DNA of 64,000 nucleotides from Pseudogulbenkiania ferrooxidans 2002 (GCF_000174355.1 NZ_ACIS01000007.1:186001-250000); one strand, 5' to 3'; numbered from the stretch's first letter, positions 1,672-60,874 are shown. Translations and numbers: made by a program. Notes: a model not told the origin generated them from the sequence alone.

Positions 1672-1706
1672 AAAAGGTTGGCCGAAGCGGGGCTTTGGCC
1701 AACCTT
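1672..1706 (-). terminator. Hairpin built from the GTTGGCCGAAG repeat; likely terminator of the oxygenase gene
   Basis: Perfect 10-bp arms AAGGTTGGCC (1674-1683) and GGCCAACCTT (1697-1706) enclose a 13-nt loop. On the minus strand the hairpin is followed by TTGTC, giving a short T-run, and it lies just downstream of the oxygenase gene that ends at 1723. The left arm is a full copy of the dispersed 12-mer described under the repeat family, so this is an uptake-sequence-style terminator arrangement. Confidence 0.6.
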
Positions 1707-1722
1707 GGGGCATCGTGAGGCC

Positions 1723-2565
1723 CTAGCCCTTCACCCCCAGCTCGCGCAGCCGCTCGGCGAGATAGCTGCCGGCGCTGTAGCGTTGCGACAGCACCACCTC
1801 GTCGCGCGGGTGCAGGAACAGGGGCAGCGCGACGCGGCTCCTGGCGGCGGCTTCGCCCACCGGGTTGACCACGCGGTGCAGCGTGGACGGGTAGTAGCCG
1901 CGCGAGGCTTCGGCCAACATGTCGCCGGTGTTGATCACCAGCGTGCCGAAGTCGCACGGCACGTCCTGCCACTGGCCGTCGCGCCCCTGCACCTGCAGCC
2001 CCGGCTCGCTGGCGGCGGGCAGGATGGTCAACAGGTTGATGTCGCCGTGCGCGGCGGCGCGCAGGGCGCCGGCCGGCTCGTCGCCGCTCAGCGGGGGGTA
2101 GCGCAGCACGCGCAGCAGCGTGCTGCGGCTGTCCGCGATCATCGACGACAGCGGCTGGCTGTAGTGCGCGGCGATGTCGGGCGGGGTATGGCGCTCCACC
2201 CAGCCGAGCAGTTCGGCCGCGAGCGCGCTGGCCACGGCGTAGTAGCGCAGGGTGTCGTCGTGCAGCTCGGGCGGAATGCGCCCCCAGGGGTAGACGTGGT
2301 AGTACTCCTTGAGGTCCTTCTGGGTGTGGCCCTTGGCGGTCTCGGACACCGCGGTGGAGAACCAGCCGTCCTGGGTCTCGGGAGAGAAGGCGTAGGCGTG
2401 CTTGGCGTCGCCGTCGAAAAAGGCCAGCCAGCGCCGGTACAGGTCCGTCACCAGCGTCTCCGGGATCGGGTGATGGCTGAGCACGGCGAAGCCGGTCTCG
2501 TGCAGCGAGCGGGCGAAGCGTTCGGCGGCGTCGGCGGCGCGGTAGTCGACTTGCTGGACGTTCAT
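1723..2565 (-). CDS. Isopenicillin N synthase-type 2-oxoglutarate/Fe(II) oxygenase
   Basis: 280-residue protein of the non-haem iron dioxygenase superfamily. The N-terminal DIOX_N-like half (residues 1-120, with GFAVLSHHPIP) resembles the IPNS/GA-oxidase group. The jelly-roll core carries the iron ligands: HGD (HGDINLL, near residue 190) and the distal His in TLHRVVNP near residue 245, followed by the R-x-S-like 2OG site (ARSRVALPLF). ATG at 2565 is preceded by AGGAG at a good distance. The true substrate cannot be told from sequence; bacterial members of this group oxidise amino acids, nucleobases or secondary metabolites. It stands alone on the strand, between uvrD and cysE, with no biosynthetic partners. 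Confidence 0.85.
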   Translation of the reverse strand: MNVQQVDYRAADAAERFARSLHETGFAVLSHHPIPETLVTDLYRRWLAFFDGDAKHAYAFSPETQDGWFSTAVSETAKGHTQKDLKEYYHVYPWGRIPPELHDDTLRYYAVASALAAELLGWVERHTPPDIAAHYSQPLSSMIADSRSTLLRVLRYPPLSGDEPAGALRAAAHGDINLLTILPAASEPGLQVQGRDGQWQDVPCDFGTLVINTGDMLAEASRGYYPSTLHRVVNPVGEAAARSRVALPLFLHPRDEVVLSQRYSAGSYLAERLRELGVKG

Positions 2566-2730
2566 CTCATGCTCCTATGGGGCATCAAGTCAGGTTGCAG
2601 CAAGGGGGCACGGGCGGCGCTGGCACCGCCCCAGGCTGCTGACAAAGTACCCTGTCCAGATTCTACCGGACCCGGCAAAGCCGGGCCGCTTCTGACAAGC
2701 TATTGAATCCGCAGCCTTCCTTATTTACAC

Positions 2731-2765
2731 GACAAACCCCTTCCGCTTCGCAAAAGGGGTTTGTC
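2731..2765 (-). terminator. Strong hairpin, terminator of cysE
   Basis: Perfect 12-bp inverted repeat GACAAACCCCTT (2731-2742) and AAGGGGTTTGTC (2754-2765) with an 11-nt loop. It lies 43 bp past the stop of cysE on the minus strand. The stretch 2566-2730 between it and the oxygenase gene holds only a short GC hairpin (CCCGGC/GCCGGG near 2672-2686) and no gene. Confidence 0.65.
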
Positions 2766-2807
2766 AACAATCTCGCGCGGTGCCTGCACCGCCCGTGGCA
2801 TGGCAGC

Positions 2808-3590
2808 TTACACCCGCTGGTCCATGTCCAGCCCCGGCGTGCCCGGTCCGGGCGAGCCCACCACCTTGGCCGGCACCCCGGCCACGGTGCTGTGCGGTGG
2901 CACGTCGTCCAGCACCACGCTGCCGGCGCCGACCTTGGCGCACTCGCCGACGTGGATGTTGCCGAGGATCGCCGCGCCGGTGCCGATCAGCACGCCGTCG
3001 CCGATCTTGGGATGGCGGTCGCCGCGCTCCTTGCCGGAGCCGCCCAGCGTCACGCCGTGCAGGATCGAGACGTTGTCGCCGATCACCGCGGTTTCGCCCA
3101 CCACCACGCCGGTGCCGTGGTCCAGCATCACGCCCTGGCCGATGCGCGCCGCCGGGTGGATGTCGGCGCCGGTCACCTCGGAGATGCGGTTCTGCAGGAA
3201 CAGCGCCAGCGTCTGCCGCCCCTGCTGCCACAGCCAGTGCGTCACGCGCTGGCTCTGGATGGCGTGAAAGCCCTTGAAGTACAGCAACGGGATGGAGTAG
3301 CCCTCGCAGGCCGGGTCGCGGTCGTAGCAGGCCACGATGTCGGCGCGCATCTTCTGGCCGATGACGGGGTCGGCCGCGAGCGCCTCGCGGAACAGCTCCA
3401 TCAAGGCGCGCGCGTCCATCACCGGGCTCGAGAGCTTGCTCGACAGGTGGAAGGCCAGCACGTCTTCCAGCGTGTCGTGGCGCAGCACCGTCATGTGCAG
3501 GAAGCTCGCCAGCAGAGGCTCGGCCTGCGCGGCGGCTTCGGCCTCCTTGAAGACGGCAAGCCAGATCGGGTCGTCGTAGTTTTCGCTCAT
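2808..3590 (-). CDS. cysE: Serine O-acetyltransferase
   Basis: Transfers acetyl from acetyl-CoA to L-serine, making O-acetylserine for cysteine synthesis in the cytoplasm. The 260-residue protein has the SATase N-terminal helical domain (residues 1-140, with LSSKLSSPVMDA and YFKGFHAIQSQR) and then left-handed beta-helix hexapeptide repeats (IHPAARIGQGVMLDHGTG, GVTLGGSGKERGDRHPKIG). The catalytic Asp (GADIHPAA) and His (LDHGTGVVVGE) are present. I chose the ATG at 3590 (MSENYDDPIW) rather than the upstream in-frame start at 3626, because alignment to the family begins here. The C-terminal tail is short, and the Cys-synthase docking Ile is not evident (ends MDQRV). This is the long CysE form rather than the short EpsC type. 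Confidence 0.93.
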   Translation of the reverse strand: MSENYDDPIWLAVFKEAEAAAQAEPLLASFLHMTVLRHDTLEDVLAFHLSSKLSSPVMDARALMELFREALAADPVIGQKMRADIVACYDRDPACEGYSIPLLYFKGFHAIQSQRVTHWLWQQGRQTLALFLQNRISEVTGADIHPAARIGQGVMLDHGTGVVVGETAVIGDNVSILHGVTLGGSGKERGDRHPKIGDGVLIGTGAAILGNIHVGECAKVGAGSVVLDDVPPHSTVAGVPAKVVGSPGPGTPGLDMDQRV

Positions 3591-3778
3591 GCTTGTCTCG
3601 TTACAGTGTTTGCGGCGGCATTCCAAAAAGCATTAGGAACGAGAACGCGAAGGCAAGTGAGCGGGGCCGCAGACAGTACAGCTAGTACGGCAAGGGCTCG
3701 CTGAGCGAATCTTAAGATTCGCACGCGGTCCGCGGCCACGCGGCCGACAACGTTATCGTTTCTAAGGCGCATTTGGAA

Positions 3779-5275
3779 TCACAGCAGCACCACGTCGAAC
3801 TGCTCCTGTGGATAGGTGGTTTCCACCGACAGCGAGATCGGCTTGCCGATGAAGTCCACCAGCATCGCCAGGCTCTGCGATTCCTCGTCGAGGAACATGT
3901 CGATCACCGGCTGCGCGGCCAGGATGCGGAAGCCCTTGGCGTCGAACTGGCGCGCCTCACGCACGATCTCGCGCTGGATTTCGTAGCACACCGTCTGCGC
4001 CGTCTTGATCTCGCCGCGCCCCTGGCAGGTCGGGCACGGTTCGCACAGCACGTGCGCCAGGCTCTCGCGCGTGCGCTTGCGGGTGATCTCGACCAGCCCC
4101 AGGCTGGTGAAGCCGTTCAGCGTCACCCGGGTGCGGTCGCGCGCCATCGCCTTGGCCAGCTCGTTCAGCACCTGGCTGCGGTGCTCCTCGTTATCCATGT
4201 CGATGAAGTCGACGATGATGATGCCGCCCAGGTTGCGCAGGCGCAATTGGCGTGCGATGGCGTGGGTGGCCTCGAGGTTGGTCTTGAAGATGGTCTCGTC
4301 GAAATTGCGGTTGCCGACGAAGCCGCCGGTGTTGACGTCGATGGTGGTCATCGCCTCGGTCTGGTCGATGATCAGGTAGCCGCCGAACTTCAGGTTGACG
4401 CGGCGCGCCAGGGCGCGGTCGATCTCGGCCTCGATGCCGTGCAGCTCGAACAGCGGGCGCTCGCCGCTGTAGCGCGCGATCTTGTCCACCGCGTTGGTGA
4501 CGTACTGCTCGGCGAACTCCACCATGCGGCTGTAGTTCTCGGTGGAGTCGACGATGACGTGCTCGGTCGATTCGCTCACCATGTCGCGCAGCACGCGCAC
4601 CGCCAGCGGCAGGTCTTCGTAGAGCAGGCTCTGCGGCGGTTCGGTGAGCGAGCGCTGGCGGATGTCGGTCCACAGCTTGCCGAGGTAGCCGATGTCGGCG
4701 GCGAGTTCCTGGTCGCTGGCGGTCTCGGCGCTGGTGCGGATGATGTAGCCCTTGGGTGTGCCGTCGGGCAGCAGCTTCTCCAGCCGCGCCTTGAGGCTCA
4801 GGCGGTCCTCCTCGTTCTCGATCTTCTGCGAGATGCCAATGTGCTCTTCCTGCGGCAGGTGCACCAGGAAGCGCCCTGCCAGCGAGATCTGCGTCGACAG
4901 GCGCGCGCCTTTCGTGCCGATCGGGTCCTTGATCACCTGGACCAGCACGGTCTGGCCCTCGAACAGCATCTTCTCGATGCGCTGCGGCTCGGAAGGATGC
5001 TGGCGCTGTTCCAGCACGTCGGCGATGTGCAGGAAGGCGGCGCGCTCCAGACCGATCTCGATGAAGGCGCTCTGCATGCCGGGCAGCACGCGCTTGACCT
5101 GGCCGAGGTAGATGTTGCCGACGATGCCGCGGCTGGCGGCGCGCTCCACGTGCAATTCCTGCACGATGGCGTCTTCCAGCACCGCGACGCGGGTTTCCTG
5201 CGGCGTGATGTTGACCAGGATCTGCTCGTTGGGGCGCGGCAGGTCGCGTGGCAGCGGAATGGATTGATGCAGCAT
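3779..5275 (-). CDS. rng: Ribonuclease G
   Basis: Endoribonuclease of the RNase E/G family, which processes the 16S rRNA 5' end and decays some mRNAs. It has 498 residues, close to the 489 of E. coli RNase G and without the RNase E C-terminal scaffold. An S1-type domain (RGIVGNIYLGQVKRVLPG, near residues 48-66) is followed by the catalytic core with the Mg2+ aspartates in TIDVNTGGFVGNRNFDE and IIIVDFIDM, and the Zn-link CEPCPTCQGRGE. It begins 10 bp after maf; GAGGAG precedes the ATG at 5275. The N-terminus carries about ten residues more than E. coli (MLHQSIPLPRDLPR), so the start could be slightly internal. The maf-rng order is the same as yhdE-rng in enterobacteria. Confidence 0.95.
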   Translation of the reverse strand: MLHQSIPLPRDLPRPNEQILVNITPQETRVAVLEDAIVQELHVERAASRGIVGNIYLGQVKRVLPGMQSAFIEIGLERAAFLHIADVLEQRQHPSEPQRIEKMLFEGQTVLVQVIKDPIGTKGARLSTQISLAGRFLVHLPQEEHIGISQKIENEEDRLSLKARLEKLLPDGTPKGYIIRTSAETASDQELAADIGYLGKLWTDIRQRSLTEPPQSLLYEDLPLAVRVLRDMVSESTEHVIVDSTENYSRMVEFAEQYVTNAVDKIARYSGERPLFELHGIEAEIDRALARRVNLKFGGYLIIDQTEAMTTIDVNTGGFVGNRNFDETIFKTNLEATHAIARQLRLRNLGGIIIVDFIDMDNEEHRSQVLNELAKAMARDRTRVTLNGFTSLGLVEITRKRTRESLAHVLCEPCPTCQGRGEIKTAQTVCYEIQREIVREARQFDAKGFRILAAQPVIDMFLDEESQSLAMLVDFIGKPISLSVETTYPQEQFDVVLL

Positions 5276-5285
5276 GCGACGCTCC

Positions 5286-5882: not shown

Positions 5883-6034
5883 GGGGTTGCCGTCAGGGTT
5901 TTATTCTTGGACTGCCTGCAAGGGTACCAGAGGCCCTCTCTCCGTACTATCGGCAGCATGGGGGACTTCGGCCAACCCTGAGGGAGCGGGACCCGGCGCG
6001 GCCCCCTGTCCTCGCGACGACCCGCGCCGCAATG

Positions 6035-6062: not shown

Positions 6063-6084
6063 CGGGGGAGATACAACATGGTGA

Positions 6085-11676: not shown

Positions 11677-11859
11677 CGTGCAAGGTACCGGCTTCGGCCA
11701 AGCTGGGAATCAGCCGTACGCGTGAGCCGCCATGCCCTGCTGGCGTCGCGTCCCGCCGACTGCGGTCGTTTCCCGAGTTGTCATGACGATGGTATGATTT
11801 TGGCATCTCATGTGTGTACGTGGTCGCGCCAGTCGCGACATCTGGTTCCCCTTGCTGTC

Positions 11860-12785: not shown

Positions 12786-12927
12786 AGAAGGGCGGAGGGG
12801 ATTCTTGTTGGGGTGAGTGGCAGTGAATACAGCAAGAGGTTGGCCGAAGATATGATTTCCTTCGCTTGGGCTAGGCAGCATCGCATCTGTTATATGATGA
12901 TTGAGTTCTTGCATTGAGGATTTCCTC

Positions 12928-20761: not shown

Positions 20762-22393
20762 TCAGACGCGGAAGCGCCGTACGCTGTGGCCGAGCTGGTG
20801 CGCCAGTTCGACCAGCTGCGTGACGCCGCCGGCGAGGCTTTCCGCCACCGCCGCGCTCTGCTCGGCGGCACCGGCCACGCACTCCATGCTGCCGGCGATG
20901 TCGCGGCTGGCGACGTGCTGTTGCTGCATCGCGCTGGCGATGCCCTGCGCCTGGTCGCGCGAGGCCTGCGCCGCGGTCTCGTTGCGCTTGAGGCCGTCGC
21001 CCACGCTCTCGACGTAGCGGCGGCTGCTCGCCAGCGCCGCCAGGCCTTCGGCGATGGACGCTTCCAGGGTGTGCGACTGGCTGTCGAGCAGCAGCGTGAC
21101 GCGGTCGATCTCGTTGGCCGAAGCCGCCGACTTTTCCGCCAGCTTGCGCACCTCGTCGGCCACCACGGCGAAGCCGCGCCCCTGCTCGCCGGCGCGCGCC
21201 GCCTCGATCGCGGCGTTGAGCGCCAAGAGGTTGGTCTGGTCGGCGATGTCGCGCACCTCGCTGGTCATGCCGGCGATGTCGCGGCTCTTGGCGAGGAAGG
21301 CGCCGACCAGCTCGGCGGTGCGGCCCACCACCGCTTCCACCCGCCCCACCTCGTCCACCAGGGTGGCGAGCTGCGCCGTGCCCTGGCGGCTGCTCGCCAG
21401 CGCATGGTCCGCCGCCTGGTGCATGGCGTCGCTGACGTCGGCCACCGAAGCTACGCTGACCGACAGCTCCTCGATGGAACCGGCCGATTCGGCCGAGGCC
21501 CGCGACTGCTCGCGCGCCGCGCCCAGGAGCTGCGCCGACATCTGCGCCAGCGTCTCGGCCAGCCGCTCCAGTTCGCCAGCGCTGTGTTGCACCGTCGCCA
21601 CGCTGCTGGCGAGGTTGCCGCTCATCTGCTGCATGGCGCCCAGCACCTGGCCGGTCTCGTCGCGTCCTGCGGGCGGCAGCGTGACACTGAGGTCGCCGCC
21701 GGCGATGGCGCGTACCGCGCCGACCATGCGCCGCATCGGCACCGTGATGCCGCGGGTGATCAGCCAGCCGGCCAGCAGGCTCAGCAGGATGATGCCGCCG
21801 CCGGCGCCAAGGCCGATCCATTTGGCCTGGGCGTAGGCCCGCGCGGCGTCGTCCAGCGCGGCGCGCGTCCTGGCCTGTTCCGCGGCGATCAGCGCTTCCA
21901 GCGCCTCGCGCCAGGGGCGCACGGCGGGGATCAACTGCGCGTTCATCACCGCGATGGCGCCGGGCACGTCGTTGGCGAGCCCGAGCTGCATCATGCGGTC
22001 GATCACCGGTTCGGCCTGGCGGCGCTGGCGGGCCGCCTGCTCCAGCAGCGCCCGCTCCGCGGCGCCGGGGGTGTAGCGCTGCCAGTGTTGCTCCAGTTCG
22101 TGCAGCGTGGCGTCGTAGTCGAGGCGTGCCGTGGCCATCTTGGCGACGGCCTGACGCTTGCTGGGCTCATCCGGAAACATCACCGCGTCGCGGTAGACGG
22201 TGCGCTGGCTTTGCAGATTGTAGGTAAGGCGGGTGGTCAGCTCGACGGTGCGGTTGTGGTCGAGCGCCACCTCGTCGAGATGATCGCGCAGCCGGCTAAG
22301 ACCGGTGAGCTGGACCGCCAGCAGCAGCGCCACCAGCAGGGTCATGCCGCCGAAGCCGAGTGCCAGCCGCTGGCCGATACGGAGATGGTTCAT
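20762..22393 (-). CDS. Methyl-accepting chemotaxis protein (four-helix-bundle sensor)
   Basis: 543-residue chemoreceptor starting [14 protein letters not shown] at 22393. TM1 is near residues 13-30, followed by a periplasmic 4HB_MCP-type helical domain, TM2 ([20 protein letters not shown]) near residue 190, a HAMP domain ([22 protein letters not shown]) and the signalling domain with [20 protein letters not shown]. The C-terminus ends in RRFRV without a CheR-docking pentapeptide. A TTG-type extension to 22471 is ignored. It is related to, but clearly not a recent copy of, the receptor at 17292. Ligand unknown. Confidence 0.94.
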
Positions 22394-25992: not shown

Positions 25993-26766
25993 ATGACCCG
26001 CACCGCCTTCATCACCGGTTCCACTTCCGGCATCGGCCTGGCCGTCGCCTGCCGTCTCGCCGCCAACGGCTGGGCCATCGGCCTGCATGGCCTGGCGACT
26101 CCCGCGCAGCGCGACGAGGCGCTGGGCATGGTGCGCCAGGCCGGCGCCGCCGACGCCGCGTTCTTCGACGGCGACCTGCGCGACCCCGCCGCGGTGCAGG
26201 GGTTGGCCGAAGCGGTGCAGCGCTGGCGTCCTGTCGACGTGCTGGTCAACAACGCCGGCATGCAGCACACCGCGAGCGTGGCGGCGATGCCGGCCGAGCT
26301 GTGGCAGGCCATCCTCGCCGTCAACCTGTCGGCCGCGTTCTTGCTGATGCAGGCGCTGCTGCCCGGCATGGCGGGGCGCGGCTGGGGGCGCGTGGTCAAC
26401 ATCGCCTCGGTGCACGGGCTGGTGGCATCGGTCAACAAGGCGCCGTACGTGGCGAGCAAGTTCGGGCTGGTCGGGCTGACCAAGGTGGCGGCGTTGGAAT
26501 ACGCGCAGAGCGGGGTGACGGTGAACGCGATCTGCCCGGGCTGGGTGGAAACCGCGCTGATCGAGCCGCAGATCCAGGCGCGCGCGGCCGCCTTCGGCGG
26601 CGACCGTGACGCCGGCCTGAAGGCGCTGGTGCTGGACAAGCAGCCGTCCGGACGCATGAGCCAGCCGTCCGACATCGGCGAGGCGGTGGCGATGCTCTGC
26701 GGCGACTGGGCGCACAACCTGACCGGGGTGGCGCTGCCGATCGACGGTGGCTGGAGCGCGCAGTAG
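25993..26766 (+). CDS. bdhA: 3-Hydroxybutyrate dehydrogenase (SDR family)
   Basis: 257-residue short-chain dehydrogenase oxidising D-3-hydroxybutyrate to acetoacetate with NAD+, a step in poly-hydroxybutyrate turnover. Cofactor motif TGSTSGIGLAVA near residue 8, NNAGMQH near residue 90, catalytic Ser in NIASVHGLVAS, Tyr/Lys in YVASKFGLVGLTK, and substrate-side ICPGWVETALIEPQI. The combination NIASVHGL plus KAPYVASK is characteristic of bacterial 3HBDH. GAGAGGAGA precedes the ATG at 25993. The specific substrate is inferred from family resemblance, since general SDR activity cannot be excluded. A dispersed 12-mer copy lies inside the gene at 26202. Confidence 0.85.
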   Translation: MTRTAFITGSTSGIGLAVACRLAANGWAIGLHGLATPAQRDEALGMVRQAGAADAAFFDGDLRDPAAVQGLAEAVQRWRPVDVLVNNAGMQHTASVAAMPAELWQAILAVNLSAAFLLMQALLPGMAGRGWGRVVNIASVHGLVASVNKAPYVASKFGLVGLTKVAALEYAQSGVTVNAICPGWVETALIEPQIQARAAAFGGDRDAGLKALVLDKQPSGRMSQPSDIGEAVAMLCGDWAHNLTGVALPIDGGWSAQ

Positions 26767-26781: not shown

Positions 26782-26818
26782 GTTGGCCGAAGCGCGTTGC
26801 CCTGCGTCTTCGGCCAAC
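26782..26818. repeat. Inverted pair of the dispersed 12-mer
   Basis: GTTGGCCGAAG (26782-26792) and CTTCGGCCAAC (26808-26818) form a perfect 11-bp stem with a 15-nt loop, 16 bp after the stop of bdhA. No T-run follows, so its role as a terminator is uncertain. It is the second place in the window where two copies of the motif face each other. Confidence 0.75.
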
Positions 26819-29797: not shown

Positions 29798-30709
29798 TCA
29801 GATCGCCGGGTATTCGGTGGCGAGGTACTGCCAGAACGCTTCCAGCACCGGCCGGTTGCGCTTCTTGCTGCGATAGAGGCGCAGCTCCATGTCCACCCCC
29901 CAGCGCTCGTCGGCGGCCGGGGCGAGCTGGCCGTAGCGCACTTCGCGCGCCACCGCGCTTTGTGGCAGGAACGCCACGCCGTGCCCCTCCAGCACCATGT
30001 TCTTCAACCCCTCGGCCATGTCGGTCTCGTAGCGCAGGTGCAGATGGCAGGGTTCCGGCGCGTCGGCCAGGATCTGCTCGGTCATCAGCCGGAAGTAGGC
30101 GCTGGCGGCGTAGCCGAGGAAGGGCACGGGGGCGGCCGCGCTGCCGGGCAGGGCGAAGCGCGGCTGGCGCTGGCGGTCGGCGCGGGCGTAGGGGCGCAGC
30201 CGTTCCACGCCGAGCCGGAGCCCGAGGTAGCGGCCGTCTTCCAGTTCCACCGGTTGCTTGGGATGGTGGTAGCACATCAGGAGGTCGCTGCCGCCTTCGA
30301 CGAAGGCCAGCAGGGCGTCGTGCACGTTGCTCGCCTGCAGCCGGCACGACAGTTGGCCGAAGCCCTGTTCCACTCGGCTCAGCCACTTGGGGAAGAACGA
30401 GAACGACAGCGTGTGGGGGACGGCGAACTCCAGCGTGTCTTCCGGCAGCGGACGCATGCCCTGCAGCAGTGCCCGGGTGGCGTGGATCTGGTTGAGCATG
30501 GCGGCGGCGTGTTCGCGGAACACCTCGCCGGCCGGCGTGAGCCGCGTCGGGTACGAGGTGCGGTCGATCAGCTCGGTGCCGATCCAGCCTTCCAGGGCGC
30601 GGATGCGGCGCGAGAACGCCGGCTGGGTCAGGTGGCGCGCCTGTGCCGAACGGGTGAAGCTGGCGGTTTCCGCCAGCACCAGAAAATCCTCCAGCCATCG
30701 TGTTTCCAT
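29798..30709 (-). CDS. LysR-family regulator, HypT/YjiE-like
   Basis: 303-residue regulator starting METRWLEDFLVLAETASFTRSAQARHL at 30709. The winged HTH is in residues 5-65, with RRIRALEGWIGTELIDR. The effector domain resembles the hypochlorite-responsive HypT (YjiE) of E. coli in overall pattern (FPKWLSRVEQGFG; MLEGHGVAFLP). That similarity is from memory and only partial, so no gene symbol is used. It lies upstream of aspA on the same strand and may regulate it. A long in-frame extension to 31000 is rejected because it overlaps the lipoprotein gene. Confidence 0.85.
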   Translation of the reverse strand: METRWLEDFLVLAETASFTRSAQARHLTQPAFSRRIRALEGWIGTELIDRTSYPTRLTPAGEVFREHAAAMLNQIHATRALLQGMRPLPEDTLEFAVPHTLSFSFFPKWLSRVEQGFGQLSCRLQASNVHDALLAFVEGGSDLLMCYHHPKQPVELEDGRYLGLRLGVERLRPYARADRQRQPRFALPGSAAAPVPFLGYAASAYFRLMTEQILADAPEPCHLHLRYETDMAEGLKNMVLEGHGVAFLPQSAVAREVRYGQLAPAADERWGVDMELRLYRSKKRNRPVLEAFWQYLATEYPAI

Positions 30710-30852
30710 GCTCGTGCTCCAGCGTCCGGGGCGGTGGGAAAGAACGGGGTGCATGGTAGCACCGTGATGAACGATTGGTGCGCGTGGCGGTCTGTTGCCT
30801 GTTGTCCGCTTGCGCGGAGCAAGATCGTGAACCGGTTCCACAGGAGTGCGCA

Positions 30853-31275
30853 ATGAATCCACCCCACTTGACCCGTCTCTGCGCCGTCGTGCTGGCGCTG
30901 ACGCTCGCCGCCTGCGCCACGCCCCAGACGGCGGGCGGCAGGCGTGCCGCCAGTCCGGCCCCGGCGCCCTCCGCCCAGGCCGCCGCCGTGCCGCCGGCAC
31001 CGAGTACCGCCCCCGCGCCGCGCCTTGCCGCGGCGGCCGACTGCATCCAGGGCGGGGCGCAGAAATGGGGTATTCCCGCCAATTACCTGACGCGGCAGAC
31101 CCGCGCCGATGGCGGCATCGTGCTGACCCTGGTCAATCCGTATTCCGGCAAGCGCGGCCTGAGCATCGAGTTGACGCCGGATGGCCGCCACACCGAGGCC
31201 AATCTGGATGAGAACGGCACCGTGGTTTCGGCAAAGTGGCGCGGGCTGGTGAGCCGCTGTACCGACGGCGCCTGA
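30853..31275 (+). CDS. Putative lipoprotein of unknown function
   Basis: 140-residue protein with a lipoprotein signal peptide: hydrophobic stretch LCAVVLALTLAAC with the lipobox LAAC near residue 21. A Pro/Ala-rich linker (ASPAPAPSAQAA) and a folded C-terminal part of about 75 residues with two cysteines (DCIQGG; SRCTDG) follow. CAGGAG precedes the ATG at 30853. No family was recognised for the C-terminal part. It stands alone, divergent from the LysR gene. Confidence 0.75.
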   Translation: MNPPHLTRLCAVVLALTLAACATPQTAGGRRAASPAPAPSAQAAAVPPAPSTAPAPRLAAAADCIQGGAQKWGIPANYLTRQTRADGGIVLTLVNPYSGKRGLSIELTPDGRHTEANLDENGTVVSAKWRGLVSRCTDGA

Positions 31276-33531: not shown

Positions 33532-34197
33532 ATGACCAGCCGCACCGTACCACTCGATACGCCCCTGCACGACTACCTGATGGACATCGGCGTCACCGAA
33601 CACCCGGTGATGGCCGAGCTGCGCGCCTTCACCGCCGGCCATCGCCTGGCCAAGATGCAGATCGCCCCGGAGCAGGGCCAGTTCATGGCCTGGCTGGCGC
33701 AGCTGATCGGCGCGCGGCGCTACCTGGAAATCGGGGTGTTCACCGGCTACAGCGCGCTGGCGGTGGCCTTGGCCATGCCGGAGGACAGTGAGGTGGTGGC
33801 CTGCGACGTCAGCGACACCTTCACCGCCATCGCCCGCGAGTACTGGCAGAAGGCCGGCGTGGCCGGGCGCATCCGGCTGGTGCTGCAGCCGGCGCTGGCG
33901 ACGCTGGAGGCGCTGTTGGCCGAAGGCCGCGCCGGCAGCTTCGACCTGGCCTTCATCGACGCCGACAAGCCGGCCTACCCGGACTACTTCGAGGCGTGCC
34001 TGAAGCTGGTGCGGCCGGGCGGGGTGATCGCCATCGACAACATCTTCCTCAGCGGCCGCGTGGTTTCACCGCGCCCGGAAGACCCGCCCGGGGTGCACAT
34101 CATGCACGCCTTCAACGCCGGCCTGAAGCACGACCCCCGCATCCGGCTCGCGGTACTGCCGGTGGGCGACGGCCTGACGCTGGCCACCCGCTTGTAA
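33532..34197 (+). CDS. Class I SAM-dependent O-methyltransferase (COMT-like)
   Basis: 221-residue enzyme of the methyltransf_3 (catechol/caffeoyl-CoA O-methyltransferase) group. The SAM-binding glycine region is YLEIGVFTGYSALAVALA near residue 64, the acidic metal/substrate motif is FIDADKPAYPDYFEACL near residue 140, and GGVIAIDNIFLSGRV follows. Members need a divalent metal and methylate catechol-type hydroxyls or related small molecules; the bacterial substrate is unknown. It directly precedes tolR in the place where tolQ would normally be expected. A copy of the dispersed 12-mer lies inside at 33914. Confidence 0.9.
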   Translation: MTSRTVPLDTPLHDYLMDIGVTEHPVMAELRAFTAGHRLAKMQIAPEQGQFMAWLAQLIGARRYLEIGVFTGYSALAVALAMPEDSEVVACDVSDTFTAIAREYWQKAGVAGRIRLVLQPALATLEALLAEGRAGSFDLAFIDADKPAYPDYFEACLKLVRPGGVIAIDNIFLSGRVVSPRPEDPPGVHIMHAFNAGLKHDPRIRLAVLPVGDGLTLATRL

Positions 34198-34723: not shown

Positions 34724-35682
34724 TCGCCGTGGCCGAACAACGCAATTCACCGTGGCCGGTCGTCCTGTCGCTGCTGCTGCACGCCACGGTGGTGCTGCTG
34801 CTGGTGCTGGGCGGACTGAGCTCGACCGACAAGCCGCAGGACGCCCCGGTCGCCGTCGAACTGTGGAGCAGCGCGCCGCCGCCTCCGCCGCAGGCGCCGA
34901 GCGTGACCGTGCCGCAGCCGGTGGCACGCCCGCAGCCGGAAGTGCCCAAGGCCGCGCCGGCGCCGGTCGAGCCGCCGCGCGCCGAGGTCAACCTCGGCGA
35001 GAAACGCAAGCCGCTGCCGCCGGTGAAGAAGCCGGAACCCAAGCCGGAACCCAAGCCGGAGCCGAAACCCGAACCGAAACCCGAACCGAAACCCGAACCG
35101 AAGCGCGAAGCCAAGCCGGAGGTGGTGAAGCAGGCCAAGCCGCAGCCGGCACCCAAGCCGGTCGAGAAGGCCCCACCGGTGAAAACCGCCAAGGCCGACA
35201 GCGTGCCCGACAAGCATGCCGAGAAGAAGGCGGCGGCGCTGCCGCCGGGCAAGGGCAGCAAGGCGGCGCCGCGCTACAACCCGGAAGCCGACGACCTGCT
35301 GGCCGATCTTGGCAGCAGCAACACCACCAAGAAGGGCAACGCCCGCAGCGACCAGGCCGGCCAGAAAACCGGCGTGGTCGGCGGTTCGGCCAACGGCACG
35401 TCGCTCAACCTAGACGGCTACGCCAGCAAGGTCCAGGCCAAGGTGAAGCCGCTGGTGCAGGTTCCGCCCGAGCTGTCGGGCAACCCCAAGGCGGTGGTGC
35501 AGGTGACGCTGCTGCCGTCGCTGGAAGTCCGCGCGGTGCGCCTGCTGGCGTCGAGCGGCAATACGGCCTACGACGAGGCGGTGCAGCGCGCGATCTGGGA
35601 GGCGAAGGTCTTCCCGTCGCTGCCGGCCGGCGCCAGCTTTACCGATTTCCGCCAGCTCAAGCTGGAATTCCGCCCCCATTGA
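34720..35682 (+). CDS. tolA: Tol-Pal system protein TolA
   Basis: 320-residue periplasm-spanning protein. TM near residues 13-35 (VVLSLLLHATVVLLLVLGG) contains the S-x-x-x-H motif that interacts with TolQ/R. A Pro/Lys/Glu-rich spacer includes six or more KPEP units at nucleotides about 35026-35106, and the C-terminal TonB/TolA-type domain starts near residue 230 (GYASKVQAKVKPLVQVPPEL). The spacer is a Pro-rich type rather than the long helical TolA-II of enterobacteria. Translationally coupled to tolR. Confidence 0.93.
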   Translation: MIAVAEQRNSPWPVVLSLLLHATVVLLLVLGGLSSTDKPQDAPVAVELWSSAPPPPPQAPSVTVPQPVARPQPEVPKAAPAPVEPPRAEVNLGEKRKPLPPVKKPEPKPEPKPEPKPEPKPEPKPEPKREAKPEVVKQAKPQPAPKPVEKAPPVKTAKADSVPDKHAEKKAAALPPGKGSKAAPRYNPEADDLLADLGSSNTTKKGNARSDQAGQKTGVVGGSANGTSLNLDGYASKVQAKVKPLVQVPPELSGNPKAVVQVTLLPSLEVRAVRLLASSGNTAYDEAVQRAIWEAKVFPSLPAGASFTDFRQLKLEFRPH

Positions 35683-38760: not shown

Positions 38761-39249
38761 ATGATCGAAGTCGGTATCGTGATGGGTAGCAACAGCGACT
38801 GGGACGTCATGCAGAACGCCGCCCGCGTTCTCAAGGACTTTGGCGTCGCGTTCGAAACCCGCGTCGTCTCCGCCCACCGCACTCCTGACCTGCTGTTCGA
38901 CTACGCCGCCAGCGCCGAAGCGCGCGGGCTCAAGGCGATCATCGCCGGCGCCGGCGGCGCCGCCCACCTGCCGGGCATGCTGGCCGCCAAGACCCACGTC
39001 CCGGTGCTGGGCGTGCCGGTGCCGTCCAAGTACCTGCGCGGCGAGGATTCGCTGCTGTCCATCGTGCAGATGCCCAAGGGCATCCCGGTGGCCACTTTCG
39101 CCATCGGCGAAGCCGGGGCCGCCAACGCCGCGCTGTTCGCGGTGGCGATGCTGGCCAATGCCGTGCCGGAACTGGCCGCGAAGCTGAAGGCCTTCCGCAA
39201 GAAGCAGGAAGACACCGTGCTGGCGATGACGCTGCCGGAGGTCGAATAA
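38761..39249 (+). CDS. purE: N5-carboxyaminoimidazole ribonucleotide mutase
   Basis: 162-residue class I PurE, which converts N5-CAIR to CAIR in purine synthesis. The active site is visible: GSNSDWD (residues 9-15), VVSAHRTPD (39-47, catalytic His), [11 protein letters not shown] and the [17 protein letters not shown] loop. Its stop codon overlaps the purK start by one base (TAATG), so the two are translationally coupled. Only the class I form needs PurK, which agrees with the next gene. Confidence 0.97.
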
Positions 39250-40379
39250 TGGCGGCAATTCTCCCCCCGGCGATGCTGGGCATTCTCGGCGGCGGCCAGC
39301 TGGGCAGCATGTTCACCGTGGCAGCCAAGACCATGGGCTACCGCGTGACGGTGCTCGACCCTGACGCCAGCGCCCCGGCGGCGCGCTTCGCCGACGTGCA
39401 TTTGTGCGCGCCGTACAACGATCCGGACGCGCTGAAGACCTTGGGCGAAACCTGCTCTGCCGTCACCACCGAGTTCGAGAACGTCAACGCCGAGGCGATG
39501 CGCGCGCTGGCCGAACGCACCCGCGTGTCGCCGTCCGGCGACTGCGTGGCGATCGCGCAGGACCGCATCGTCGAGAAGGGCTGGATCAACAAGGCCGGGC
39601 TGCCGACCGCGCCGTATCTCGCGATCGAGTCGGTCGAGGAGATCCAGGTCGATCTGACCCCGTACCTGCCGGGCATCCTCAAGACCGCGCGTCTGGGCTA
39701 CGACGGCAAGGGCCAGGTGCGCGTGCAGACCGCCGACGAGGCGCGCGCCGCCTACGCCGACCTGGGCGGCCAGGCCTGCGTGCTGGAAAAGATGCTCGAC
39801 CTCCAGCTCGAGGTCTCGGCCATCGTCACCCGCACCTCGCCGGCGCAGGTGGCGGTGTTTCCGGTAGCGGAGAACCTTCACACCGGGGGCATCCTCGACG
39901 TCTCCATCGTGCCGGCGCGCATCGCGCCGGAACTGGCGGCGCAGGCGCAGGACATGGCCAAGAAGTTGGCCGAAGCGCTCGATTACGTCGGTGTGCTGGC
40001 GGTGGAGTTCTTCGTGCTCGCCGACGACACGCTGGTGGTCAACGAGATCGCGCCGCGCCCGCACAACTCCGGCCACTACACGCTGGATGCCTGCCTCACC
40101 GACCAGTTCCAGCAGCAGGTGCGCGCCATGTGCGATCTGCTGCCGGGCCGCACCGACCTGCTGAGTCCGGCGGTGATGGTCAACCTGCTGGGCGACAGCT
40201 GGCGCGAGGACGGCGGCGAGCCCAACTGGGCGGTGCTGGCCGAGGCGCCCAACGTCCACCTACACCTCTATGGCAAGCAGCAGGCGCGCACCGGCCGCAA
40301 GATGGGCCACTACACCGTGCTGTCGGCCAGCGCCGACGCCGCGCTGGAGCAGGCCGAGGCGCTCAAGGACACGCTGTAA
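39249..40379 (+). CDS. purK: 5-(carboxyamino)imidazole ribonucleotide synthase
   Basis: 376-residue ATP-grasp enzyme carboxylating AIR with bicarbonate to N5-CAIR. The N-terminal preATP-grasp domain has [12 protein letters not shown] near residue 12; the ATP-grasp core includes [15 protein letters not shown], the metal ligands [27 protein letters not shown] and the C-terminal PurK domain. Co-translated with purE. A copy of the dispersed 12-mer lies inside at 39965. Confidence 0.96.
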
Positions 40380-42175: not shown

Positions 42176-43740
42176 GCCGGCGGCGCGCCTTTGCCGTTCT
42201 GGAGCCCGGACGATGCAAGCCTTTACCCTCGACGCCGCCGACGGCGAAACGATCCGTGGCTGGTGTTGGCTGCCCGCCACGGCGCCGCGTGCGGTGGTGC
42301 TGATCGTGCACGGCATGGGAGAGCACGCGGCCCGTTACCGGCGCTTTGCCGACAGCTTGGCCGAAGCCGGTTACGCGGTGTACGCGCACGATCAGCGCGG
42401 CCATGGCGAGCGGCCGCGGCGGCGCGGCTGGTTCGCCGCCGAACAGGGCTGGAACAAGGTGGTGGACGACGTCGATACGGTGCGCGCCCACGCCGCGGCG
42501 CGGCACCCCGTGGTGCCGCTGCTGCTGTTCGGCCACAGCATGGGCAGTTTCGTGTCGCGCGCCTACCTGCTGCGTCACGGCCAGGGCTTGGCCGGGCTGG
42601 TGCTGTCGGCCACCGGCTACCGCCAGGCCTGGCTGGCGCGGCTGATGCGCCGCGTCGCCGGCCTGGCGGGCCGGCTGGGGGGACGGCTGCAGCCGAACGC
42701 CTTCATGAGCCGGCTGGTGTTCGGCAGTTTCAACCTGTCGTTTCTGCCGGCGCGTACCGCGGTGGACTGGTTGAGCCGCGATGCGGCCGAGGTCGATCGC
42801 TACCTGGCCGATCCCTTGTGCGGCTTTCACTTTACCCCGGCGCTGTGGCAGGACCTGTTCGGCGGCATCATCGCGCTGATGCCAGGCCAAATTCCCAGCC
42901 CGGAGAATGTGCGGCAGCGCGGCGGTGCTGCGCCCCCCTCGGCTTCGTCGTCGAAGGCCACCCCAAGGACTCCTGTTTCCCGACGGCCCTGGGCGATCAC
43001 GTGCTGACGGCCCTGCCCAACCCCCATTTCGCCCCGCGCGCATGCTGCCTGAACCGGCGGCGGGCCCTCCTGTCCCGGAGCCGGCGAAGCAAGTTTTCCC
43101 TCGCGCGCGAGCCAAACGATCCGTGGCTGGTGTTGGCTGCCCGCACGGCCCGCTGCGGGGTGCTGATCGTGCACGGCATGGGAGAGCACGCGCCCGTTAC
43201 CGGCGCTTTGCCGACAGCTTGGCCGAAGCCGGTTACGCGGTGTACGCGCACGATCAGCGCGGCCATGGCGAGCGGCCGCGGCGGCGCGGCTGGTTCGCCG
43301 CCGAACAGGGCTGGAACAAGGTGGTGGACGACGTCGATACGGTGCGCGCCCACGCCGCGGCGCGGCACCCCGTGGTGCCGCTGCTGCTGTTCGGCCACAG
43401 CATGGGCAGTTTCGTGTCGCGCGCCTACCTGCTGCGTCACGGCCAGGGCTTGGCCGGGCTGGTGCTGTCGGCCACCGGCTACCGCCAGGCCTGGCTGGCG
43501 CGGCTGATGCGCCGCGTCGCCGGCCTGGCGGGCCGGCTGGGGGGACGGCTGCAGCCGAACGCCTTCATGAGCCGGCTGGTGTTCGGCAGTTTCAACCTGT
43601 CGTTTCTGCCGGCGCGTACCGCGGTGGACTGGTTGAGCCGCGATGCGGCCGAGGTCGATCGCTACCTGGCCGATCCCTTGTGCGGCTTTCACTTTACCCC
43701 GGCGCTGTGGCAGGACCTGTTCGGCGGCATCATCGCGCTG
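42005..43740. repeat. Tandem duplication of about 0.86 kb, probably an assembly artefact
   Basis: The segment about 42005-42878 is followed by a second copy at about 42885-43740. From roughly 42331 onward the copies are identical for about 0.55 kb at an offset of 862 bp. The first 330 bp of the second copy (42885-43212) is a degraded version of the GNAT 3' end and the hydrolase 5' end, with substitutions and single-base indels packed together. Joining 42878 to 43741 restores one normal hydrolase gene. The pattern, perfect identity next to concentrated errors, fits a low-quality read end placed in the assembly, though a recent real duplication cannot be excluded. Confidence 0.75.
42213..43007 (+). 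pseudogene. Alpha/beta hydrolase, first copy, C-terminus lost
   Basis: Monoacylglycerol-lipase/lysophospholipase-like hydrolase (Hydrolase_4). The N-terminal part is normal: VVLIVHGMGEHAARY oxyanion region near residue 30 and nucleophile elbow LLFGHSMGSFVSR with Ser near residue 110. After FGGIIAL (residue 222) the frame enters the duplicated GNAT remnant (MPGQIPSPENVRQ...) and continues for 42 meaningless residues. The catalytic Asp and His that should follow are missing, so this copy as written is inactive. If the duplication is removed, the gene becomes 308 residues (42213-42878 joined to 43741-44001). Confidence 0.75.
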
Positions 43741-44001
43741 GAGGCCGGCGAGCAGCGCGGCCGCAACCTGCCGCGTTGCCCGGTGCTGCTGATGACCGGC
43801 AGCCGCGATCCGGTCAGCCTGGGGCACTGGGCGCTGCGGCAGCTGGCGCGCCGCTACCGGCGCGCCGGGCTCGACGACATCACGCTGCGGGTCTACCCCG
43901 GCGGGCGTCACGAGATGCTCAACGAAACCAATCGCGAGGCGGTGACCGCCGACATCCTGGCCTGGATGGAGCGTGTCGGCGTGGCCGGACGGACCGGCTA
44001 G
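42907..44001 (+). pseudogene. Alpha/beta hydrolase, second copy, N-terminus corrupted
   Basis: Contains the intact region from RYRRFADSLAEAGYAVYAHD to the natural C-terminus, including the nucleophile Ser (GHSMG), the catalytic Asp in MTGSRDPVSLG and the His in GRHEMLNETN. The first 95 or so residues of the open frame (MCGSAAVLRPPRLRRRRPP...) are an out-of-frame reading of the degraded GNAT/hydrolase copy. No proper start codon lies near the true domain start. Together with the first copy it represents one real gene. Confidence 0.75.
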
Positions 44002-46752: not shown

Positions 46753-48813
<2,061 letters not shown>

Positions 48814-48840
48814 GATGGTTTCGGCCAAGGCGCGCTTCGG

Positions 48841-50195: not shown

Positions 50196-52510
50196 TCAGG
50201 CTCCCGGGCGGTAGCCGATGGCGTCGAGCGCGTCGAGCACCGCCTGCGGCGTGGCCGGGGCGGCGAGCGGCACGCGCTGGCCCGGCGCGGCGCAGTAGCC
50301 CAGGGCGTCGCGGATGGCGAAGAACACCGACAGCGCCAGCATCAGCGGCGGCTCGCCCACCGCCTTGGAGTGGTGCAGGCCTTCCTCGATGTTGGCGTTG
50401 TCGAACAGCGTGACCGTGAAGTGCTCCGGCACGTCGTAGGCGGTGGGAATCTTGTAGGTGGACGGCGCGTGCGTGGCGAGCCGCCCGTCCGGCTGCCAGC
50501 AGAGCTCCTCGCTGGTGAGCCAGCCCATGCCCTGCACGAAGCCGCCCTCGATCTGGCCGCGGTCGATGGCCGGGTTCAGCGAGCGCCCGACGTCGTGCAG
50601 GATGTCCACCGCCAACAGCCGCGTCGCCCCCGACAGCGTGTCCACCGCCACCTCGCTCACCGCCGCGCCGTAGGCGAAGTAGTAGAACGGCCGGCCCTGG
50701 CGCGTGTCGGCATCGTAGTGGATCTTGGGCGTGCGGTAGAAGCCGGCCTCCCACAACGGCAGGCGGCGGCGGTAGGCCAGCGTCACCAGTTCGCTGAAGT
50801 CGAGCCGGTGTTCGCCGGAGCAGACCTGTCCCCCTTTGAATTCGACCGTGGCGGCGTGGCAGCCGTAGAGCACGGCGAACAGGGCGGCCAGCCGGGTGCG
50901 GATCGCCCCGGCGGCCTGGCGCGCGGCCTGGCCGTTGAGGTCGGCGCTGGAGGAGGCGGCGCTGGCCGAGGTATTGGGCACCTTGGCGGTGTCGGTGGCG
51001 CCGATGCGCACCCGCTCCAGCGGCAGTCCGAGTTCCTCGGCCACCACCTGCTGCACCTTGATGTGCAGGCCCTGGCCCATCTCGATGCCGCCGTGGCTGA
51101 CCAGCACGCTGCCGTCGAGGTAGACGTGCGCCAGCGCGCCGGCCTGGTTGTAGTGGGTGGCGGTGAAGGCGATGCCGAACTTGACCGGGGTCAGCGCCAG
51201 GCCGCGCTTGAGCACGGGGCTGGCGGCATTGAAGGCGGCGATGGCGTGGCGGCGTTCCGGGTAGTGGCTGTCGCGTTCCAGCTGGTCCACCAGCTCCGGC
51301 AGCACGTTGTCCGCCACGGTCATGCCGTAGTGCGTGGTGTCGCGCGGCGCGGCGCCGTAGAAGTTGGCGCGCCGCACCACCAGCGGGTCGCATTGCAGGG
51401 TGCGCGCGATGTCGTCGAGCACGCTCTCGATGGCGAACATGCCCTGCGGCCCGCCGAAGCCGCGGAAGGCGGTATTCGACACCGTGTGAGTCCTGAGGCG
51501 CAGGTTGTGCAGCGTCACCGCGTCCAGGTAGTAGGCGTTGTCGACGTGGAACAGCGCACGATCGTTGACCGGGCCGGACAGGTCGGCGGAATGGCCGCAG
51601 CGCGCCGCCAGGGTCAGCTCGAGGCCGTGCAGGCGGCCGCTGTCGTCGAAGCCGGCGTCGTAGTCGTAGGCGAAGTCGTGGCGCTTGCCGGTGACGGCGA
51701 TGTCGACGTCGCGGTCCAGGCGCAGCTTGACCGGGCGGCCGGTGCGCTGCGCCAACAGCGCCGCCAGGCAGGCCCACTGCGCCGACTGCGTTTCCTTGCC
51801 GCCGAAGCCGCCGCCGATGCGGCGGCACTCGACCGTCACCGCGTGCGCCGGCAGCCCGAGCGCCTCCGCCACCAGTTGCTGCATCTCGCTCGGGTGCTGG
51901 GTGGAGCAGTAGAGCTGCAGGCCGCCGTCGTCGCGCGGCACGGCGTAGCTGACCTGCCCCTCGAGGTAGAAGTGCTCCTGGCCGCCCACGCTCAGCTGCC
52001 CCTGCAGGCGGTGCGGCGCCTGTTGCAGGGCGGCCGCGGCGTCGCCGCGTTGCATCTCCACCGGCGGCAGCACGTAGTCGGCGGCGGCGCGCGCGCTGGC
52101 GATGTCGAGGTGCGCCGGCTGCGTCTCGTATTCGGCCCACGCCAGCCGTACCGCGCGCCGCGCGATCTCGACGCTGTCGGCGGCGACGGCGAACAAAGGT
52201 TGGCCGAAGAAGCTCACCTCGCCCGCGCACAGGATCGGGTCGTCCGGCTCGATCGGGCCGCAGCTGGTGCCGTGGCACAGGTCGGCCGCGGTGAGCACGG
52301 CGCGCACGCCCGGCAACTGCCGCACCGTGTCGAGATCGAGCGCGCTGAGCCGGCCGTGGGCGACCTCGGCGCAGCCGAGCGCGGCGTGGAGCGTGCCGGG
52401 CAGTTCCGGCAGGTCGTCGGTGTAGCGGGCACGGCCGGTGACGTGCAGCCGGGCGCTGTCGTGCGCATAGGGCAGGCCGACGTGGTCGTGCGCTGGCGGT
52501 GGTGGCGTGC

Positions 52511-52514
<4 letters not shown>
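50196..52514 (-). CDS. xdhB: Xanthine dehydrogenase molybdopterin-binding subunit
   Basis: 772-residue large subunit that oxidises hypoxanthine and xanthine to urate. It has ARYTDDLPELPGTLHAALG at the start, the CRRIGGGFGGKETQ molybdopterin motif near residue 247, AFRGFGGPQGMFAIE, GGIEMGQGLHIKVQQV, and the catalytic Glu in KAVGEPPLMLALSVFFAIRDA. The ATG at 52514 overlaps the xdhA stop by 4 bp. A 12-mer copy (CAAAGGTTGGCCGAAG) is embedded in the gene near 52197. Confidence 0.95.
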
Positions 52515-56803: not shown

Positions 56804-56827
56804 CGTCATTCTCCTTTCATTGCGCCG

Positions 56828-57631: not shown

Positions 57632-57695
57632 GGCGGGGACATCCGCAGAGGGGTTTCCCTCACTATAGACACCGCGGCGGCGTGCATCGCGCCGT

Positions 57696-58601: not shown

Positions 58602-58620
58602 CCTCACCTCTCCTCGGGGG

Positions 58621-59436
58621 CTAGCGGCTTCGGCCAACCGCGATCAGGCCGTCGCCGGGCGAACTGGGCGAGGCCGCGTAATGCTTCATCGGCATGCGTC
58701 CCGCCTCGTGGGCGAGCCGTCCCGACGCCACGGCCAGGCGCATCGCCTGTGCCATGGCGACCGGGTCGCGGGCCTGGGCGATGGCGGTGTTCATCAGCAC
58801 GCCGTCGCAGCCCAGTTCCATGGCGATGGCGGCGTCGGAGGCGGTGCCCACCCCGGCATCCACGAGCACCGGGATGGAGACGGCGTCGATCACGAGGCGC
58901 ACGTTCCAGGGGTTGAGGATGCCCATGCCGGAACCGATCAGGCTGGCCAGCGGCATCACCGCCACGCAGCCGATATCTTGCAGGCGGCGCGCCTGGATCG
59001 GGTCGTCGGCACAATACACCATCACCTGAAAGCCGTCACGGACCAGCACCTCGGCGGCCCGCAAGGTTTCCGGCATGTTGGGGTAGAGGGTGCGCTCGTC
59101 GCCCAGCACCTCCAGCTTCACCAGCGCGTGGCCGTCCAGCAGCTCGCGCGCCAGGCGCAGGGTGCGCACCGCATCTTCTGCGGTATAGCAGCCGGCGCTG
59201 TTGGGCAGGTAGGTGTAGCGCTCTGGCGGCAGCACTTCCAGCAGGCTGGGCTCCCCCGGCGTCTGGCCGAGGTTGGTGCGACGCACGGCCACGGTGACGA
59301 TTTCCGCCCCCGAGGCTTCCACTGCCTGCCGCGTTTCCTCCAGGCTGCGGTACTTGCCGGTGCCCACCAGCAGGCGCGAGGCGTAGGCCCGGCCGGCGAT
59401 GACGAGCGGCTGCGGGGTGTTGTCCTGCGGTGCCAT
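58621..59436 (-). CDS. thiG: Thiazole synthase
   Basis: 271-residue TIM-barrel enzyme that makes the thiazole phosphate moiety of thiamine from deoxyxylulose phosphate, ThiS-thiocarboxylate and dehydroglycine. The Schiff-base Lys is in [11 protein letters not shown] near residue 107; other signatures are [46 protein letters not shown] and [19 protein letters not shown]. The start at 59436 ([15 protein letters not shown]) is 1 bp after the pyk stop. It is unusual here: no thiS, thiO, thiE or thiC is adjacent, and the operon is one of glycerate metabolism. Confidence 0.93.
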
Positions 59437-59437
59437 G

Positions 59438-60874
59438 TCAGCCTTCCCCTGCCACGCCGTCGGGCAGGTGCACCACGTGCAGCAGGTTGGTGCTGCCACG
59501 TTGGCCGAAGGGAATGCCGGCGATCACCACCACGGTATCGCCGGGCGCGGCGACCTGTTCGCGCAGCGCGGCGTCGCTGGCGTGGGCGATCATCTCGCCC
59601 ACGTCCTGCACCTCGTCGAACGGCACCGGATGGACCCCCCAGACCAGGGCCAGGCGGCGCGCGGTGGCGAGCTGAGGGGTGAGCGCCAGGATCGGCGCCA
59701 CCGGGCGCTCGCGGCTGGCGCGCAGCGCGCTGAAACCGGAGGAGGTGAAGGCCACCGTGGCGGCGGGCTGCAGCAGTTCGGCGACGCGGCGCAGGGCGCA
59801 GCAGATGGCGTCCGGGGTGTTGGGCCGGGCCGGGGTGTGGCCGGCCGCCAGTTCGTGGCGCCATGCCGGGTCGTGCTCCACCTCGGCGATGATGCGGTCC
59901 ATGATGGCGACCGCCTCCACCGGGTACTGGCCGGAGGCGGATTCGGCCGACAGCATCACCGCGTCGGCGCCCTCGTACACCGCGGTGGCGACGTCGGAGG
60001 CTTCGGCGCGGGTCGGCACCGGGGCCACGATCATCGATTCCAGCATCTGGGTGGCCACCACCACCGGCCGGCCGGCGGCGCGGGCGGCGCGCACGATGCG
60101 CCGCTGCAGCACCGGCACCTGCTGCGGTGGCAGTTCCACCCCGAGGTCACCGCGCGCCACCATGACGCCGTCGGCCAGCGCCACGATTTCCTCCAGATGC
60201 TCGATGGCGGCCGGCTTTTCCAGCTTGGCCATGATCCAGGCCTGGTCGCCGATCAGCGCGCGCGCCTCGGCGATGTCCTCGGGGCGCTGCACGAACGACA
60301 GCGCCACCCAGTCGACCCCCAGTTCCAGGCCGAAGGCGAGATCGGCGCGGTCCTTCGCCGTCAGCGGCGAGATCGGCAGCACCACGCCGGGCACGTTCAC
60401 CCCCTTGCGGTCGGACAGCGTGCCGCCCACCAGCACCGTGGTGTCGGCGAAGTCGGGGCCGAAGGCCTCGACGCGCAGGCGCAGCTTGCCGTCGTCGAGC
60501 AGCAGCTCGGTGCCGACCTCGAGCGCGGCGAAGATTTCCGGGTGCGGCAGGGTGGCGCGGCCGGCGTCGCCCTCGGCGGGGTCGAGGTCGAGGCGGAAGC
60601 GGGCGCCGGGTTCGAGCAGCGCCTTGCCGCCGGCCATGCGGCCGATGCGCAGCTTGGGGCCTTGCAGGTCGAGCAGCACGCCGATCGGGCGGCCCAGTTC
60701 CTGCTCGACCTCGCGGATCAGGCGCAGGCGTGCGGCGTGGTCCTCGTGGCTGCCGTGGCTGAAATTGAGCCGGAACACGTCGGCGCCGGCTTCGGCCAAC
60801 GTGCGGATGCGTTCAAGCGTGGAACTCGCCGGCCCGAGCGTGGCGAGGATGCGGGCACGACGCTGGCGTCTCAT
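59438..60874 (-). CDS. pyk: Pyruvate kinase (TtuE-like context)
   Basis: 478-residue pyruvate kinase converting PEP to pyruvate and ATP. The barrel has [16 protein letters not shown] near residue 8, [24 protein letters not shown], the signature [17 protein letters not shown] with the catalytic Lys, and [11 protein letters not shown]. The C-terminal domain is intact. ATG at 60874 overlaps the stop of the upstream gene by 4 bp. In tartrate/hydroxypyruvate operons the corresponding gene is ttuE, next to a glycerate kinase, as here. It is likely a paralogue of a housekeeping Pyk. Confidence 0.94.

Follow-up and report, generated by a model that had tools for sequence, protein, structure and literature searches.

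An abundant 12-mer with genus dialects in Chromobacteriaceae as a probable DNA uptake sequence

Word copies in and around the genes of the window

The window, meaning the whole stretch of 64,000 nucleotides analyzed here, carries genes for metabolic enzymes, a LysR regulator and a methyl-accepting chemotaxis protein, and within and between them recurs the 10-mer TTGGCCGAAG, which a preliminary description made from the sequence had proposed to behave as a DNA uptake sequence (DUS). Its over-representation was confirmed, with 19 exact copies in the window against 0.13 expected and a maximum of two in dinucleotide shuffles, together with 21 copies of the 9-mer TTGGCCGAA and ten of GTTGGCCGAAGC. 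The gene assignments made there for the 2OG oxygenase, LysR, PurK and the FadH-like reductase hold. The copies are distributed as follows.

1677..1703, inverted pair, intergenic hairpin; left arm GTTGGCCGAAGC, exact; right arm GTTGGCCAAAGC on the minus strand, one mismatch
1908..1917, minus strand, copy inside the 2OG-Fe(II) oxygenase gene (1723-2565, minus), reads Leu-Ala-Glu
5966..5975, minus strand, copy, intergenic by codon-usage gene calls
11692..11701, minus strand, copy, intergenic by codon-usage gene calls
12840..12849, plus strand, copy, intergenic by codon-usage gene calls
21114..21123, plus strand, copy opposite the methyl-accepting chemotaxis protein gene
26203..26212, plus strand, copy inside the short-chain dehydrogenase gene (25993-26766, plus), frame 0
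26782..26818, inverted pair, intergenic hairpin 15 nt past the short-chain dehydrogenase gene
30353..30362, plus strand, copy opposite the LysR regulator gene (29798-31000, minus)
33916..33925, plus strand, copy inside the O-methyltransferase gene (33532-34197, plus), frame 0
35385..35393, minus strand, 9-mer TTGGCCGAA only (GTTGGCCGAACC in the 12-mer register)
39966..39975, plus strand, copy inside purK (39249-40379, plus), frame 0
42357..42366, plus strand, copy inside an alpha/beta hydrolase gene (42213-43007, plus), frame 0
43219..43228, plus strand, copy inside a second alpha/beta hydrolase gene (42907-44001, plus), frame 0
48275..48284, plus strand, copy inside the FadH-like NADH:flavin oxidoreductase gene (46792-48813, plus), frame 1, not Leu-Ala-Glu
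48820..48828, minus strand, 9-mer TTGGCCGAA only
52200..52209, plus strand, copy opposite predicted gene 50196-52514 (minus), putative xdhB according to the preliminary description
58628..58637, minus strand, copy inside predicted gene 58621-59436 (minus), frame 1
59501..59510, plus strand, copy opposite the pyruvate kinase gene (59438-61186, minus)
60790..60799, minus strand, copy inside the pyruvate kinase gene (59438-61186, minus), same strand, frame 0

Across the whole genome (4,225,125 bases) TTGGCCGAAG occurs 823 times, 399 on the plus and 424 on the minus strand, a density of about one copy per 5 kb, and the reversed control occurs 17 times; at roughly 48 times the control, a genome-wide frequency near expectation is excluded. 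While copy number was taken from whole-genome counts, word statistics were drawn from a 464 kb sample consisting of the 64-kb window and 400 kb from two other contigs. When words of 9 to 13 bases were ranked in this sample against an order-4 Markov model, as had been suggested, motif words came first at each length, and GTTGGCCGAA was observed 129 times against 3.5 expected. Two other words, CTGACGCTG and GAGGCGCTG, were also over-represented 3-4 fold in the sample, possibly through codon-pair effects.

Alignment of 110 copies placed the conserved stretch between about three bases 5′ of TTGG and one to two bases past CGAAG, with a strong A three bases 5′ of TTGG (77%), a weak 3′ C (64%) and no conservation beyond about 14 bp. 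The conserved unit is A-G-GTTGGCCGAA-(G), i.e. the 12-mer AGGTTGGCCGAA; the motif proposed in the preliminary description is thus real, although its conserved unit lies slightly 5′ of the 12-mer given there. As conservation ends at about 14 bp, the motif does not belong to a longer repeat.

Placement was scored with gene calls from a simple, uncurated codon-usage finder, according to which 68 of the 110 copies are genic, spread over five of the six combinations of frame and strand but favoring the Leu-Ala-Glu frame (37 copies), and 42 are intergenic, a 3-fold enrichment over the 14 expected. Occurrence in several frames and the abrupt end of conservation exclude confinement of the word to one reading frame or a single repeat family. 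The earlier argument that the word overrides codon preference by its use of TTG and GAA was likewise upheld: among 231 Leu-Ala-Glu occurrences in sampled genes, TTG GCC GAA was found 49 times against 3.8 predicted from codon usage (13-fold), while the neighboring spellings TTG GCC GAG (6 against 6.1) and CTG GCC GAG (66 against 56.9) were near expectation, showing that selection acts on the DNA.

The word is spaced more evenly than random. Eleven opposite-strand pairs lie no more than 80 bases apart, ten of them intergenic, and no same-strand (tandem) pairs were found within that distance, an arrangement matching that described for the Neisseria DUS (PMC3630211). Both inverted pairs claimed for the window exist, lie between genes and fold as hairpins, with one mismatch in the right arm at 1677..1703. 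Hairpins of this kind at gene ends could also belong to a mobile or structural family of repeats of the REP or terminator type, but most copies are single, the majority lie within predicted genes, nothing is conserved past the motif itself, and neither of the window hairpins has an adjacent T-run terminator, making this explanation extremely unlikely. An abundant, non-palindromic, genome-wide word could instead orient RecBCD or FtsK in the manner of Chi or KOPS. We regard this as very improbable, given that none of ten stretches, each 64-200 kb long, showed a significant strand bias (p 0.06-0.75), that intergenic enrichment and inverted pairs are observed, and that most sister species are without the word. 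The word is thus a genuine genome-wide motif at the DNA level, whose statistics agree in full with those of an uptake sequence.

Dialects and distribution within the family

The pilin region of three relatives showed 85-95% nucleotide identity to Aquitalea magnusonii, and on the basis of this nearness the family is taken as Chromobacteriaceae (Neisseriales). K-mer scans of 12 family genomes, using samples of 120-464 kb per genome, revealed three dialects distinguished by their endings (...CGAA, ...CGAG and ...CGCA): the same word was top in five genomes, the GAG form in two of one genus and the GCA form in one genome of another genus, and in four of the 12 no such top word emerged. The form AGGTTGGCCGCA characterizes one word-bearing genus with environmental species.

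Counting of the degenerate word GGTTGGCCGMR extended this survey, and the examination of sister species proposed earlier showed enrichment in 23 of 61 family genomes and seven of ten genera (149 to 1,606 copies, the lowest count coming from an 84% complete genome), compared with 11-64 copies in unenriched family genomes. Outside the family, none of 243 genomes in a 250-genome sample of the order was enriched, the maximum being 56 copies, about the level of the reversed control. The established Neisseria word GCCGTCTGAA was abundant in only four of these 250 genomes, all of one family, Neisseriaceae (1,863 to 4,285 copies); these are without the new word, and GCCGTCTGAA is at background in Chromobacteriaceae. 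The GCCGTCTGAA counts serve as a positive control and demonstrate a reciprocal exclusion of the two words.

Copy numbers also vary between close relatives. GGTTGGCCGMR occurs about 650 times in one Aquitalea-like species and 12-38 times in its congeners. Two further genomes, G001 (149 copies) and G012 (328 copies), fall below their congeners (566-689 and 953, respectively), possibly because the tag is eroding or, in G001, because the genome is incomplete. Separately, in the wordless genome G009 (genus g8; C1:1-140000) the string AGACCTGACCCC / GGGGTCAGGTCT occurs in 14 copies per 140 kb, with well under 0.1 expected; it extends to about 16 bases and resembles a repeat family more than a DUS.

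In PMC3630211, from 2013, no obvious DUS is reported for Laribacter, Lutiella, Pseudogulbenkiania and two Chromobacterium genomes, and over-represented 10-mers of five Chromobacteriaceae-type genomes are said there to be tabulated in Table S1D. The Chromobacterium negative fits our word survey if genus g7 is Chromobacterium. Open-access searches for the word itself, or for uptake sequences together with Chromobacteriaceae or Vogesella, returned nothing relevant, and within the literature searched the word is newly reported in Chromobacteriaceae.

Likeness to known uptake sequences

The closest known sequence is AG-simDUS, AGGCTGCCTGAA (PMC10715097), with which AGGTTGGCCGAA agrees in register at nine of 12 positions. 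A score of nine was reached by 0.9% of shuffled words when any of seven dialects, either strand and small shifts were allowed (simDUS by itself yielding the 9/12 score), and by 0.4% in the same register. A CTG core is called conserved in all DUS dialects in PMC3630211; it occupies positions 6-8 in the Neisseriaceae DUS, whereas all three dialects described here have CCG. Because of this CCG core, AGGTTGGCCGAA was not filed among the known CTG-core dialects. The preliminary description had held that the word differs from the Neisseria DUS, which is half correct, given the in-register match to simDUS.

Beyond the letters, the two systems have in common genus-level dialects of one 12-mer, and the change from kingDUS AGGCAGCCTGAA to king3DUS AAGCAGCCTGCA at position 11 is the same as that from GAA to GCA here. 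Also shared with the Neisseriaceae DUS, of which simDUS is the nearest dialect, are the 12-mer register, the AGG...GAA ends, hundreds to thousands of copies on both strands, inverted pairs at gene ends and a ComP homologue. In contrast, the present word belongs to another family, its density is lower in the window genome, and a function in uptake is one that we infer. The uptake signal sequence (USS) of Pasteurellaceae shares with it the concept of an abundant self tag for DNA uptake; with a core of the AAGTGCGGT type it is an unrelated word in an unrelated family and shows no resemblance by eye.

ComP-like pilin, competence genes and the candidate reader

Sixteen pilin-like genes above the Pfam cut-off are present in the window genome. 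One of them (G000:C20:190014, 141 aa) is the last gene of a fimT-pilV-pilW-pilX-pilY1-comP operon, following genes for FimT/GspH-type, PilV-type, PilW, PilX and PilY1 proteins, and encodes a type IV prepilin matching Pfam ComP_DUS at 2e-17. Its best three PDB sequence matches are three Neisseria ComPs, the best fold match of its AlphaFold2 model (mean pLDDT 85) is N. meningitidis ComP (5hz7, 4e-7), and its alignment to ComP includes the signature FKQ-S-ST-WP-LP. A class III signal peptide, the ComP_DUS domain and FKxSSTxWPxLP are common to this protein and Neisseria ComP (PDB 5hz7, 2nba, 2m3k). However, Neisseria ComP has four cysteines forming two disulphides and the window-genome pilin has two (as in 11 of 12 word-bearing genomes, with three in G007), for which reason the protein is named ComP-like. 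Moreover, Neisseria ComPs carry a net charge of +6 and the domain here −3; where the mapping made for this work places R78, K94 and K108 of the electropositive stripe of N. meningitidis ComP, the domain has no basic residue; and the gene, in contrast to that of Neisseria, sits after pilY1 in a minor-pilin operon. A second ComP_DUS match, C12:39930, was set aside as a ComP, being nearer to major pilins, and a tree built from ComP and further pilins was not used as evidence because of its poor resolution.

ComP-like orthologues were found in all 12 word-bearing and in five of nine wordless genomes read (Fisher 0.02, with genomes that are not independent); occurring in several wordless genomes, they do not by their presence alone predict the word. 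ComEC, DprA and ComEA are encoded in all family genomes tested; being common, and present in wordless genomes too, they permit but do not prove competence.

The dialects in sister genera, the pilin resembling ComP, the competence genes and the reciprocal exclusion of the new word and the Neisseria DUS add to the evidence of the preliminary description and support the reading as an uptake sequence: AGGTTGGCCGAA(G) is very probably a self-recognition tag for natural transformation through a ComP-like pilin. It probably constitutes a new DUS dialect group, the reader of which would be a minor pilin of the type IV pilus, probably ComP. A type IV competence pilus with the ComP-like minor pilin would bind double-stranded DNA in which the 12-mer occurs and draw it inward by retraction, after which ComEA and ComEC would pass one strand to the cytoplasm and DprA would bring it to recombination. 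If the word raises uptake in this manner, biased import of tagged fragments could have built up the genomic copies over time, and these would settle at low-cost sites such as intergenic regions, terminal hairpins and Leu-Ala-Glu codons. We infer pilin binding, enhanced uptake and accumulation, and observed the word with its statistics, dialects and distribution in the family, the ComP-like pilin and the competence genes. The case for a DUS-like uptake system is strong. Because of the two cysteines, the charge of −3 and the lack of basic residues at the aligned stripe positions, there is less support for its being read by ComP as in Neisseria, and FimT may have a part in it.

Differences in putative DNA-binding residues of the pilins between word-bearing and wordless genomes bear on the choice of reader. 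The residues [FY][KR] precede WPxLP in 11 of 12 ComP-like proteins from word-bearing and in none of seven from wordless genomes, and the C-terminal GRxR of FimT is found in seven of eight word-bearing genomes (intact in G000, G002, G003, G004, G006, G007 and G013, partial in G011) and in none of seven wordless genomes read. Within one genus, FimT has GRHR in word-bearing G007 and GKAQ in wordless G015 and G020. Both contrasts were spotted first and counted afterwards, in related genomes; as apparent signs of decay in wordless genomes they are leads rather than tests. A supposed premature stop in fimT of a wordless Aquitalea proved to be the normal gene end.

The FimT of Legionella and other Gammaproteobacteria is likewise a FimT/GspH-type pilin with a GRxR tail from the same operon, and in Legionella the GRxR arginines bind DNA (PMC8897410). 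The tag might therefore be read by FimT or another pilin, or by FimT and ComP together, as the presence of GRxR at the operon head in word-bearing genomes and the lack of the positive charge of Neisseria ComP would suggest. Yet Legionella FimT is reported to bind electrostatically and without sequence selectivity (PMC8897410), and ComP is the known DUS reader, to which the window-genome pilin is nearest by both sequence and fold, so that this alternative appears rather improbable. A conceivable, though unlikely, arrangement is a two-pilin reader, distinct from the single-pilin mechanism of Neisseria, in which the FimT GRxR would provide a charge grip and the ComP-like pilin, which lacks the usual positive charge, the specificity, both decaying together once uptake specificity is lost. 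Finally, the word could be a site for a nucleoid protein, a regulator or a modification enzyme kept for chromosome organization, and abundance and even spacing would suit many DNA-binding proteins; since this leaves the DUS register match, the DUS-like dialect changes, the inverted pairs and the co-variation with pilin residues unexplained, we consider it very unlikely.

In the literature searched, transformation guided by uptake sequences is known from two lineages, Neisseriaceae and Pasteurellaceae. Under the preferred reading as a pilin-read uptake sequence, the sister family Chromobacteriaceae would harbor a second dialect group, one whose core has changed, whose candidate receptor is related, and in which the tag was gained or lost inside a single genus. 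This would form a natural series for studying the co-evolution of tag and reader, and how genomes gain or shed a thousand tags, and would open environmental non-Neisseria species to work on DUS recognition and to the improvement of genetic tools.

Two further ComP-like loci were observed. The word-rich genome G011 (L082:935-1923) has two tandem ComP-like pilin genes, the second alone with the (M)PxLP signature. In G224, a genome of the Neisseriaceae family (f44; L284:967-1917) that is without GCCGTCTGAA, a two-cysteine ComP-like pilin is encoded directly after a comEA-like gene.
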